Source: Archangiaceae bacterium (GTDB taxonomy: Bacteria; Myxococcota; Myxococcia; Myxococcales; Myxococcaceae). Taken from it: DNA of 47,931 nucleotides. The notes under the pieces were generated by a model. It worked only from the letters and a program-made list of their open reading frames with translations, made no database searches and had not been told where the DNA came from. The DNA is taken from positions 1-47,931 of the forward strand of contig JAACJQ010000149.1 of the NCBI GenBank assembly GCA_016879935.1, in the 5' to 3' direction. Numbering within the stretch: position 1 is the first letter of the stretch; each line of letters starts with the position of its first letter. Positions 24,784-29,882 of the stretch are shown here, one piece after another. The position numbers and the translations under genes are program-made.

Positions 24784-25314
24784 ATGAGCTTCTTCACGCG
24801 CCTGAAACTCGCGTTGTCCTTCCTGTTTGGAGGCGATTTACCGGCCTCCGCGACGCCGGCCGCCCCCTCGTTGCCGGCCCCCGAGCCCAAGCCTGCGCTG
24901 CCCCCGCCCGCCCCCGTGTTGACGGCCGAACAGCAGCACGGCGCCGCGTTGTTCTTCCTGGGCCTGCTCCAGCGTGAAGGCCGGTTGCTCGACTTCCTGC
25001 AGGAGGACATCACCTCGTTCTCCGACGCAGACATCGGTGCCGCTTCGCGCGTCGTGCATTCAGGCTGCAAGAAGGTGTTGGCGCAGTACCTGGCCGTCAC
25101 GCCCGTGGTGAAAGACGTCGAGGGCGCGTCGGTCTCGGTGCCGCAAGGCTTCGACGCGAGCCGCTTCCGGCTCACCGGCAACGTCACCGGTCAGGGCCCG
25201 TGGAATGGCAGCCTCAAGCACCACGGCTGGGTGGCGACGAAGATCGAGCTGCCCGCGGTGCCGTCGACGGTCGACGTGAAGGTCATCGCTCCTGCCGAAG
25301 TCGAGCTGCCGTGA
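24784..25314 (+). CDS. DUF2760 protein of the Hsp70 module
   Basis: A 176-residue protein. The N-terminus MSFFTRLKLALSFLFGG is amphipathic to hydrophobic, followed by an Ala/Pro linker (residues 20-50). The conserved DUF2760 body has ALFFLGLLQREGRLLDFLQE, then GASRVVHSGCKKVL, and ends with GSLKHHGWVATKIELP. In many bacteria DUF2760 genes lie directly before one or two Hsp70 genes, as here. The TGA overlaps the first Hsp70 start as GTGA. Biochemical function is unknown; a co-chaperone or membrane-anchor role is inferred from the genetic linkage. Confidence 0.85.
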   Translation: MSFFTRLKLALSFLFGGDLPASATPAAPSLPAPEPKPALPPPAPVLTAEQQHGAALFFLGLLQREGRLLDFLQEDITSFSDADIGAASRVVHSGCKKVLAQYLAVTPVVKDVEGASVSVPQGFDASRFRLTGNVTGQGPWNGSLKHHGWVATKIELPAVPSTVDVKVIAPAEVELP

Positions 25315-27125: not shown

Positions 27126-29882
27126 ATGTCGTTCATCATCGGCATCGATCTCGGAACGTCGAACTGCGCAGTCGCCTTCACGGATCCGAAGGACGGCGCG
27201 AAGGCGAAGATCGTCGACTTCCCCGTGCCCCAGCTCGTGCGGCCCGGCGAGCAATCGGCGCGGCCGCTGTTTCCATCGGTCGTGTACCAGCCGTTCGACG
27301 GTGAGTTCCCTGCGGGCTCGACCGCGATGCCGTGGAACGACGGAGCGCGAGTCACCGGTGAGTTCGCGCGCTGGCAGGCCGGCCGTGTTCCGCAGCGGGC
27401 CATCACCTCGGCGAAGAGCTGGCTGATTCACCAGGGCGTCGATCGACAGGCTCCGATTCTGCCGTGGGGCGCGCCGGCCGAGGTGCCGCGGCTGTCTCCC
27501 GTCGGAGCGCAGGCCGAGCTGTTGAAGCACCTCGCGCAGTCGTGGAACGCCGCGCACCCTGAAGCGCCTCTCGCTCAGCAAGACGTGGTGCTGACGATTC
27601 CCGCGTCGTTCGATGAGGCCGCACGCGCGTTGACGATTCAGGCCGCGAGAGAAGCTGGCTTCGATCTGCAGCGGCTGACGTTGCTCGAAGAGCCGCAGGC
27701 CGCGTTCTACGACTTCACGTCGCGGCATCGTGATTCGCTCGACAAGGCGCTGCAGGGCACGCGGCTGGTGCTCGTCGTCGATGTCGGCGGCGGAACGACG
27801 GACTTCTCGCTCGTGCAGGTCGCGATGCTGCCTGAAGGGCCGGCGCTCCAGCGGCTCGCGGTTGGCGATCACCTGCTGCTCGGCGGCGACAACATGGACG
27901 CGGCGCTCGCTCGGCGCCTCGAGAGCAAGCTCTTCACCGATGGGCGCACGTTCTCGGCCGCGCAGTGGGCCCAGGCCATTCAGCAGGCGCGCGGCGCGAA
28001 AGAAGCGGTGTTGTCGAAGGGCGGGCCTGACGTTCACGCGGTGTCGATCGTCGCGGGCGGCAGCAAGCTCATCGGCGGCACCTTGTCGTCGCAGCTGACG
28101 CGAGAAGAGATCACGCAGACCGTCGTCGACGGGTTCTTCCCGAAGGTCGCGGCTGATGCAGTCGTCGCGAGCGCTGCGCGTGGAGGCGTCGTCGAGCTCG
28201 GCCTCCCGTTCGCGAAGGATCCGGCCATCACGCGGCACCTGGTGGCGTTTCTTCGCGCGCACGCCGAGGCGGGCTTCAAGGCGCTGGGCCAGGCGGCGGA
28301 CGGACTGCCGAGACCCGACGCGATTCTGCTCAACGGTGGTGTCTTCAACTCACCGACGCTCGCGACGGCGTTGGTCGATGCGGTGTCGGCGCTGTTTCCG
28401 AACGCTCCGCGCGTGCCGTTGCTCAAACACGACTCGCTCGATCTCGCGGTGGCGCGTGGCGCGGCGTACTCGGGGCTCGCGCGTCGGGCGCTGGGGAAGA
28501 AGATCGGTGGTGGGGCTCCGCGTGCGTTCTACGCGTTGGTCGCTGGTGGAGCTGGCGGCAAGCAGGGCCTCTGCCTCATTCCGCGCGGGCTCGAGGAAGG
28601 TTCGACGGTCGAGCTGAAGGAGCGTGAGTTTCAGCTCACCCTCGGCAAGCCAGTGCAGTTCCAGTTGTACTCGACGACGGCAGACAGGCTCGATGCGCCG
28701 GGTGCGGTCGTGTCGCTCGAAGACGAGATCTTCAAAGCGCTGCCGCCGATCCACACCATCCTCGCGGGAGCGAAGGGCAGCACCATTGGCGTGCACCTGC
28801 TCTCGACGTTGTCGGAAGTGGGAACGCTCGCGCTCTCGTGCGTCGCGGGTGATCAGCGCTGGCGCCTCGAGTTCGAACTTCGCGGCGCCGCGCGTACGCA
28901 GGACATCACCGTCACGGAGTCGATGCCCGCGAAGTTCGTCGAGGCGACGACCGAGGTCGAGCGCGTCTTCGGCACCAAGCCGCTGCCGGTGAAGCCGCAA
29001 GACGTGAAGCAGCTGTTCAAGACGCTCGAGCGCATTCTCGGGCCGCGTGAGACGTGGCGACTGCCGGTGCTCCGCGAGCTGTGGACGTCGCTGTTCGCGG
29101 GCGTGTCGAAGCGTCGCCGCTCGGTCGATCACGAGAAGGTGATGTTCCAGCTGCTCGGGTACTCGCTGCGTCCGGGAGTCGGCTACCCGCTCGATGCGTG
29201 GCGGTGCGAGCAGACGTTCTCGCTCTTCAAAGACCTGGTGACGAACCACGGAGAGCAGCCCGTGTGGGCCGAGTTCTGGATTCTCTGGCGTCGCATCGCG
29301 GGCGGGCTGAACGAGACGGCGCAGCTGCAGATTCACGCAGTGCTCGAGCCGCATCTCGCGCGACGGGTTCCCGTGGGCCTGCCGACGCCGACGACGAAGC
29401 TGAAGGGCATCGTTCCCGAGGCGCTGGAAGAGATGGTGCGCTGCGCGGCGTCGCTCGAGCTGTTGCCGGTGGGGAAGAAGGCCGAGCTCGGCGCCTGGGT
29501 CGCGTCACGGTTGGGCAGCCCCGAGACTGCGGGTGGTCCCTGGGCGTGGGCGCGCGGTCGACTCGGCGCCCGCGTTCCCGTTCACGGAGCGGCGCACAAG
29601 GTCGTGAGTGCAGAGACGGCCGAGGCGTGGGTTGCGCAGCTGTTGTCGCTCGATCCGAAGAAGCACGACACGGCCGGCTTCGCGCTCGCGTTGCTGGCCC
29701 GGCGGACCGGTGATCGCGTTCGTGACGTCGACGAGGCGACGCGGGCGAAAGTGCTCGCGCACTTCAAGGTGATCAACGCTCCGGAGTCGTGGACGCAGAT
29801 GGTCGCGCAGGTGGTTCAGCTGTCGGCCGCCGATGAAGCGCGCGCCCTCGGTGACACGCTGCCAGTGGGTCTCAGTCTCTGA
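27126..29882 (+). CDS. Hsp70-family protein 2 with C-terminal DUF3731-like extension
   Basis: A 918-residue protein. Residues 1-600 parallel the upstream Hsp70: FIIGIDLGTSNCAVA at the start, VVDVGGGTTDFSL near residue 217, LLEEPQAAFYDF, and ILLNGGVF near residue 400. An extra 300-residue helical region follows (LERILGPRETWRLPVLRELW, GYSLRPGVGYPLDAWR, WAEFWILWRRIAGGLNE), matching the DUF3731 extension seen in paired Hsp70s. The two Hsp70s are clearly paralogous but diverged, suggesting a heteromeric or sequential machine with DUF2760. No regulator is encoded nearby. Confidence 0.88.
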   Translation: MSFIIGIDLGTSNCAVAFTDPKDGAKAKIVDFPVPQLVRPGEQSARPLFPSVVYQPFDGEFPAGSTAMPWNDGARVTGEFARWQAGRVPQRAITSAKSWLIHQGVDRQAPILPWGAPAEVPRLSPVGAQAELLKHLAQSWNAAHPEAPLAQQDVVLTIPASFDEAARALTIQAAREAGFDLQRLTLLEEPQAAFYDFTSRHRDSLDKALQGTRLVLVVDVGGGTTDFSLVQVAMLPEGPALQRLAVGDHLLLGGDNMDAALARRLESKLFTDGRTFSAAQWAQAIQQARGAKEAVLSKGGPDVHAVSIVAGGSKLIGGTLSSQLTREEITQTVVDGFFPKVAADAVVASAARGGVVELGLPFAKDPAITRHLVAFLRAHAEAGFKALGQAADGLPRPDAILLNGGVFNSPTLATALVDAVSALFPNAPRVPLLKHDSLDLAVARGAAYSGLARRALGKKIGGGAPRAFYALVAGGAGGKQGLCLIPRGLEEGSTVELKEREFQLTLGKPVQFQLYSTTADRLDAPGAVVSLEDEIFKALPPIHTILAGAKGSTIGVHLLSTLSEVGTLALSCVAGDQRWRLEFELRGAARTQDITVTESMPAKFVEATTEVERVFGTKPLPVKPQDVKQLFKTLERILGPRETWRLPVLRELWTSLFAGVSKRRRSVDHEKVMFQLLGYSLRPGVGYPLDAWRCEQTFSLFKDLVTNHGEQPVWAEFWILWRRIAGGLNETAQLQIHAVLEPHLARRVPVGLPTPTTKLKGIVPEALEEMVRCAASLELLPVGKKAELGAWVASRLGSPETAGGPWAWARGRLGARVPVHGAAHKVVSAETAEAWVAQLLSLDPKKHDTAGFALALLARRTGDRVRDVDEATRAKVLAHFKVINAPESWTQMVAQVVQLSAADEARALGDTLPVGLSL

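Follow-up and report, generated by a model that had tools for sequence, protein, structure and literature searches.

The 47,931-nt contig JAACJQ010000149.1 of Archangiaceae bacterium (assembly GCA_016879935.1), analysed over its whole length and hereafter called the window, carries a three-gene module that encodes a DUF2760 protein and two divergent Hsp70 proteins, HspA and HspB. The module represents a real, widespread, and previously undescribed three-part Hsp70 system that is kept together in very distant bacteria. The three genes are firmly linked genetically. For the mechanism we offer a reasoned proposal, to which we give about an even chance: a dedicated, J-protein-independent Hsp70 machine that DUF2760 would tether on the cytosolic side of the cytoplasmic membrane, with HspB as partner ATPase. 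The module and its parts are as follows.

24784..25314, + strand: DUF2760 protein (176 aa; PF10816, E 7.7e-49), composed of an N-terminal amphipathic helix (residues 1-17), a Pro/Ala-rich linker (18-53), and the folded DUF2760 domain (54-174).
25285..25311, + strand: C-terminal tail of DUF2760, IAPAEVELP, a near-invariant short motif (strict pattern matched in 113 of 129 loci).
25311..27119, + strand: HspA (602 aa; GTG start; PF00012, E 1.7e-21), a predicted lidless Hsp70 with a nucleotide-binding domain (NBD) and the beta part of the substrate-binding domain (SBDbeta) and without its alpha part (SBDalpha).
26514..26528, + strand: NGGVF motif of HspA (N403-F407, codon 1 counted from 25308), a modified adenosine/phosphate region aligned to DnaK V340-G341-G342-Q343.
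27126..29882, + strand: HspB (918 aa; PF00012, E 1e-14; PF12531, E 1.6e-82), with predicted NBD and SBDbeta in residues 1-586, followed by about 300 helical residues.
28935..29879, + strand: helical C-terminal part of HspB (residues 604-918, including DUF3731 at 666-918), which sits where the SBDalpha lid would be according to DSSP of the model and the PF12531 match.

The three open reading frames (ORFs) are real genes and correctly placed. A preliminary description of the region, made from the sequence, had read them as coupled genes for DUF2760 and two Hsp70 paralogues, and Pfam profiles bear this out: PF10816, PF00012 (twice), and PF12531 were all recovered, with scores of 165.1 bits for DUF2760 (residues 54-174) and 277.6 bits for DUF3731 (residues 666-918 of HspB), each against a gathering cut-off of 25. 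The GTG start of HspA at 25311 falls inside the DUF2760 stop codon (GTGA, a 4-bp overlap), and 6 bp separate HspA from HspB.

Co-occurrence was counted in 195 genomes of Myxococcota, 249 genomes drawn evenly from Pseudomonadota, 39 genomes chosen for having HspB, and 14 well-known control genomes. Among the Myxococcota, DUF3731 was present in 129 genomes and DUF2760 in 123; 122 have both, seven have DUF3731 only, one has DUF2760 only, and 65 have neither (Fisher 1.9e-42). The module reaches a contig end in six of the seven genomes with DUF3731 only, and the remaining one is a 92%-complete assembly. The Pseudomonadota gave the same picture, with DUF3731 in 18 genomes and DUF2760 in 19 (both, 18; DUF2760 only, one, where the module is cut by a contig end; DUF3731 only, none; neither, 230; Fisher 1.7e-26). 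Because genomes, and not separate evolutionary events, were counted, the p-values make the observations look more independent than they are; the stronger argument is that two phyla agree, and that the set holds after physical separation of the genes. Exactly one DUF2760 was found in each of the 39 genomes selected for HspB, though it is remote from HspB in most Methylococcales/methanotrophs, and both DUF2760 and DUF3731 were absent from all 14 controls. Independent occurrence of the three genes across genomes was looked for and not seen (122 and 18 shared genomes in the two phyla). DUF2760, HspA, and HspB are an obligate set.

Within the set, DUF2760 and HspA form an inseparable pair. HspA lies directly downstream of DUF2760 in 128 of 129 loci (some of which share a genome), most often with the 4-bp overlap, which agrees with the earlier suggestion that DUF2760 is the dedicated partner. 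HspB is located away from the pair in, e.g., G158-160, G183-186, and most Methylobacter, yet it is still in the genome. The single DUF2760 without HspA is an orphan (G021, L102:8270-8830) in a genome with neither Hsp70, where the tail has decayed to APARVDLP; it is a natural case of loss. That the module recurs in other bacteria, as had been stated, holds across Myxococcota and Pseudomonadota: most of the sampled genomes of the window's family have it, as do many methanotrophs, and it also occurs in Burkholderiales; in the window's family and the sampled methanotrophs there is mostly one copy per genome.

Several loci have a distinct context. The complete DUF2760-HspA-HspB cassette occurs on two Bradyrhizobium plasmids typed as conjugative, and on the one from Bradyrhizobium sp. 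CB82 (L124:6320-14831) it is followed by groES-groEL. Plasmid pTs485 of Thiodictyon (L122:7828-11213) carries the DUF2760-HspA pair without HspB, adjoining genes annotated as anti-phage. One Myxococcota family has a gene for a Cys/His-rich (UBP-like zinc finger) protein between HspA and HspB (L063:9148-9603 and L064:2707-3147). At 23 Methylococcales loci (e.g., L138:9770-10120), the gene next downstream of HspB encodes a multi-transmembrane (TM) protein of about 117 aa without a Pfam family, in most cases in a genome where HspB has parted from DUF2760-HspA; this neighbour of methanotroph HspB is a further pointer to the membrane. Apart from the module itself and ORFs antisense to it, clustering of the neighbours at 146 loci gave no cross-phylum gene family as a possible partner.

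We aligned 66 HspA and 73 HspB sequences with E. coli DnaK, whose numbering is used here. D8, T11, K70, E171, D194, GGG196-198, T199, D201, K270, G341, and G342 are 100% conserved in both families, and both paralogues have the actin-like NBD with the catalytic set D8/K70/E171/D194/T199/D201 that identifies the Hsp70 superfamily. The catalytic residues are all kept, and HspA and HspB are therefore expected to be ATPases rather than pseudo-enzymes. Systematic changes relative to DnaK are S274 to F/L, Q343 to V, R71 to S, V340 to N (the N of NGGVF), N170 to E, and T173 to Q. Both Hsp70s had been described as lacking the DnaK-type adenosine motif and having NGGVF instead. NGGVF is indeed in both, and its N and GG are invariant in all the aligned sequences; with the phosphate-binding GG intact and the adenosine-side residues altered, the alignment indicates a motif that is modified, not missing.

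The features through which DnaK communicates with J-proteins have also diverged. The interdomain linker VLLLD is a Gly-rich stretch in both families. J-domain contacts have been reported for DnaK R167, Q378, L391, and P419 (PMC8215388); at these positions, and likewise at D393, the residues are mostly replaced (Q378 to Y/F, L391 to G, D393 to T/S/A), with R167 retained in four of the 66 HspA and 34 of the 73 HspB. Neither family has the hydrophobic VLLLD linker with R167, Q378, L391, and D393 that marks canonical DnaK-type proteins, and the best scores of the two Hsp70s of the window lie far below the NCBIfam equivalog cut-offs (HscA, 99.1 of 708.55 bits; DnaK, 77.4 of 648). In a tree with three reference Hsp70s, E. 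coli HscC, which keeps the DnaK-like linker D, fell outside the HspA and HspB group; when the tree was rooted, HspA branched from within HspB as a single clade (support 0.989), though the three outgroups are so distant that the root is unreliable. No J-domain or GrpE match lies within the window, in line with the preliminary description; the 12 J-domains and two GrpE matches of the same genome are all on other contigs. Independence of the module from a local J-protein is supported.

Those distant genes bear on a more ordinary explanation, in which HspA and HspB are diverged DnaK paralogues that work with GrpE and the cell's general J-proteins and serve as a reserve for DnaK under stress, with DUF2760 as a minor accessory. 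In its favour, the genome has these J-domains and GrpE and also encodes about 13 canonical Hsp70s elsewhere. A mutant in Myxococcus xanthus fits as well. A survey of Hsp70s included a deletion of MXAN_5323, which encodes a 925-aa protein assigned to the NBD-only class cd10170; the mutant sporulated less and survived H2O2 less well, and its motility and its growth under heat, cold, and osmotic stress were unchanged (PMC8265645), the same mild phenotype as that of other noncanonical hsp70 deletions. Judged from its length, domain class, and approximate position, and not from the record's own sequence, MXAN_5323 is very probably an HspB ortholog; in G122, a genome that is likely Myxococcus, HspB has PF12531 and the same length of exactly 925 aa. 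The protein was studied as a lone Hsp70 gene and its partner genes went unrecognised. The earlier statement that no function is established was thus slightly too strong. However, MXAN_5323 fails to complement an E. coli dnaK mutant (PMC8265645), the DnaK linker and J-domain contacts are replaced throughout both families and the lid is gone, and DUF2760 is never optional where HspA occurs. We regard this explanation as unlikely.

Structural models place these changes in a largely preserved Hsp70 architecture. AlphaFold2 modelled the HspB of the window from a 69-row alignment with a mean predicted local distance difference test (pLDDT) of 89.3 and a predicted template modelling score (pTM) of 0.86. 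Its residues 1-586, the NBD and SBDbeta, superpose on residues 1-506 of ATP-state DnaK (4jn4_A; Z 33.4, root-mean-square deviation 4.0, 469 residues). The structural alignment stops at SBDbeta, after which a disordered stretch leads into helices 604-908, matching the helical C-terminus of about 300 residues noted earlier. HspA was modelled from a homologue (L260) linked to its own DUF2760 through the naturally in-frame intergenic stretch, with the stop read as Gly. Both parts are folded in this model (pLDDT 86.3, pTM 0.77), and the HspA part superposes on DnaK 1-501 of the same structure (Z 33.6, root-mean-square deviation 4.2, 469 residues), where the chain ends. In both predicted structures the SBDbeta beta-sandwich is docked as in ATP-bound DnaK and an SBDalpha lid is lacking. 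The models point to an HspA that consists of NBD and SBDbeta without a lid, and to an HspB whose lid is replaced by the DUF3731 helices, which, to go by the pTM, may pack on the rest of the protein. The two Hsp70s had been said to show no recognisable DnaK substrate-binding lid; that loss (HspA) or replacement (HspB) stands, but the substrate-binding domain is not missing, as SBDbeta is modelled in both. Searches of the PDB by sequence with DUF2760 and DUF3731 found no meaningful relative.

The DUF2760 part of the L260 model is a compact helix-plus-strand domain (pLDDT about 85-93), and DUF2760 has no J-domain match in Pfam. In nearly all of the 129 homologues compared, the conserved domain is preceded by a variable linker of low complexity and, at the N-terminus, by a hydrophobic segment. 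The segment takes three forms. Myxococcota, Burkholderiales, and some others have an amphipathic helix (FFxRLxLAxxxLF); Methylococcales have a single TM helix, then K/R-rich residues and a linker of the VEKIVEVEK type; and another group of Pseudomonadota (L264-L271) has two TM-like segments. The anchor types are unrelated and differ by clade, and the swapping of one type for another suggests that being anchored is itself conserved. A threshold for TM-like segments was passed by 47 of 123 homologues, with a mean of 2.7 K/R in the next eight residues, as expected if the DUF2760 domain faces the cytoplasm. The start of the DUF2760 in the window reads MSFFTRLKLALSFLFGG. The proposal that this hydrophobic start places the pair at the membrane gains from the clear TM anchors of other clades; the window itself has an amphipathic helix, to which we return below.

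At its other end, DUF2760 carries the APAEVEL tail. The tail overlaps the region upstream of HspA, and we considered whether it merely reflects a ribosome-binding site of that gene; this was rejected, as the tail is kept regardless of gene spacing. Loci in which the HspA start motif is 60-535 nt distant retain it, so it is constrained as protein; it has decayed in the orphan that lost both Hsp70s. APAEVEL is a candidate peptide for the HspA substrate-binding domain.

The tail also suits a reading without any folding role, in which the module is an Hsp70-derived regulatory or assembly ATPase and DUF2760 is its only client, or a membrane sensor read by both Hsp70s. An invariant APAEVEL could act as an internal pseudo-substrate, the missing lid weakens stable trapping of substrates, and the dedication of DUF2760 to HspA is strictly one-to-one. 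In the models of both Hsp70s, nevertheless, the SBDbeta fold is complete and docks on the NBD, and no conserved effector gene adjoins the module across phyla; such a regulatory ATPase seems rather improbable to us.

In the tethered Hsp70 machine that we favour, DUF2760 would be both tether and adaptor, its membrane anchor joined by a flexible linker to a folded domain and followed at the C-terminus by the APAEVEL peptide. It would bind HspA and hold it at the membrane, perhaps with the tail in the SBDbeta cleft of HspA, as a short motif of the partner, the Zuo1 LP motif, sits in the substrate-binding domain of Ssz1 (PMC7083937). Lidless HspA, whose ATPase site is complete and whose beta-sandwich would bind peptides, may make loose and brief contacts with segments of membrane proteins or newly inserted proteins. 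HspB would be a second, differently capped ATPase that shares a client with HspA or drives the HspA cycle, much like the second Hsp70 after Ssz1 in the triad of the yeast ribosome-associated complex. From these patterns we infer direct contact between DUF2760 and HspA, a role of the tail in it, the membrane location in this organism, the type of client, and the division of labour between HspA and HspB.

Three known systems resemble parts of this arrangement. Yeast Ssz1-Zuo1 with Ssb likewise has a noncanonical Hsp70 with a rudimentary substrate-binding domain, fixed to a site by a dedicated partner, plus a second Hsp70. DUF2760, however, lacks a J-domain and would tie to the membrane, not the ribosome, HspA keeps all catalytic residues, and HspB has DUF3731 instead of a normal lid; we claim homology for the Hsp70 fold alone. 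The closest bacterial parallel in location is E. coli HscC, a divergent Hsp70 thought to act at the plasma membrane via the membrane-anchored DjlB/DjlC and without GrpE (PMC8215388). The partner there is a J-protein, whereas DUF2760 has no J-domain, and HspA has neither a hydrophobic linker nor a lid. Pairs of Hsp70 and Hsp110 also combine two unequal Hsp70-fold ATPases, one with an extended helical C-terminus, and Sse1 appears among the fold matches of HspB; but HspA and HspB are related families of their own, nothing indicates nucleotide exchange, and no sequence relation of DUF3731 to an Hsp110 tail was found.

Some observations weigh against the tethered machine. The N-terminal helix in the window is moderately hydrophobic and does not exceed shuffles of its Ala/Leu/Pro-rich tail (p 0.35). 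With a pTM of 0.77, the linked model does not fix the placement of DUF2760 on HspA. Retention of R167 in nearly half of the HspB sequences leaves room for some J-protein contact by HspB, and none of the conserved neighbours at the clustered loci points to a client. A more specific form of the proposal, in which DUF2760 takes the place of the J-protein both as tether and as trigger of the ATPase, APAEVEL is a pseudo-substrate of the lidless Hsp70, HspB-DUF3731 is an exchange factor or second-step chaperone for membrane proteins, and the whole is a fourth bacterial Hsp70 machine beside DnaK, HscA, and HscC, seems less likely than not. A mobile stress or anti-phage cassette that spreads by plasmids and protects its host would account for the complete Bradyrhizobium copies, one of them beside groESL, and for the Thiodictyon pair beside anti-phage genes, but is very improbable given single copies without defence neighbours in most genomes of the window's family and the sampled methanotrophs, a DUF2760 without a PADLOC match, Hsp70s that match the candidate PDC-M61B over only 54-92 residues (a short ATPase stretch), and no DUF3731 in the phage or viral collections and contigs searched.

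The window encodes further proteins on either side of the module. Divergent from it, with about 35 bp between the longest-ORF starts, lies a gene for an exported protein without a Pfam family above cut-off (24095-24748, - strand), homologues of which adjoin the module in several close relatives. Next to it is a Tgl-type social-motility TPR lipoprotein (22866-24071, - strand; NF033762, E 1.6e-84) whose match begins at residue 160; the first 160 or so residues of this ORF form a separate conserved region and are possibly a gene of their own. Downstream, an MMPL/RND exporter gene (HpnN/BstA-like; 30885-33326, + strand) appears as two ORFs, split by a single in-frame stop at about 32349-32351, past which coding-like sequence carries on in the same frame.

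In the paper library searched, no work names DUF2760, DUF3731, or 'DNA-K related protein'. Bacterial Hsp70s are divided in a recent review into three types, DnaK, HscA, and HscC, each of which works with J-proteins (PMC8215388). The module described here keeps the ATPase site yet loses the features through which J-proteins act, and would show another way to drive and locate an Hsp70. Two unnamed Pfam families, DUF2760 and DUF3731, gain a testable role.

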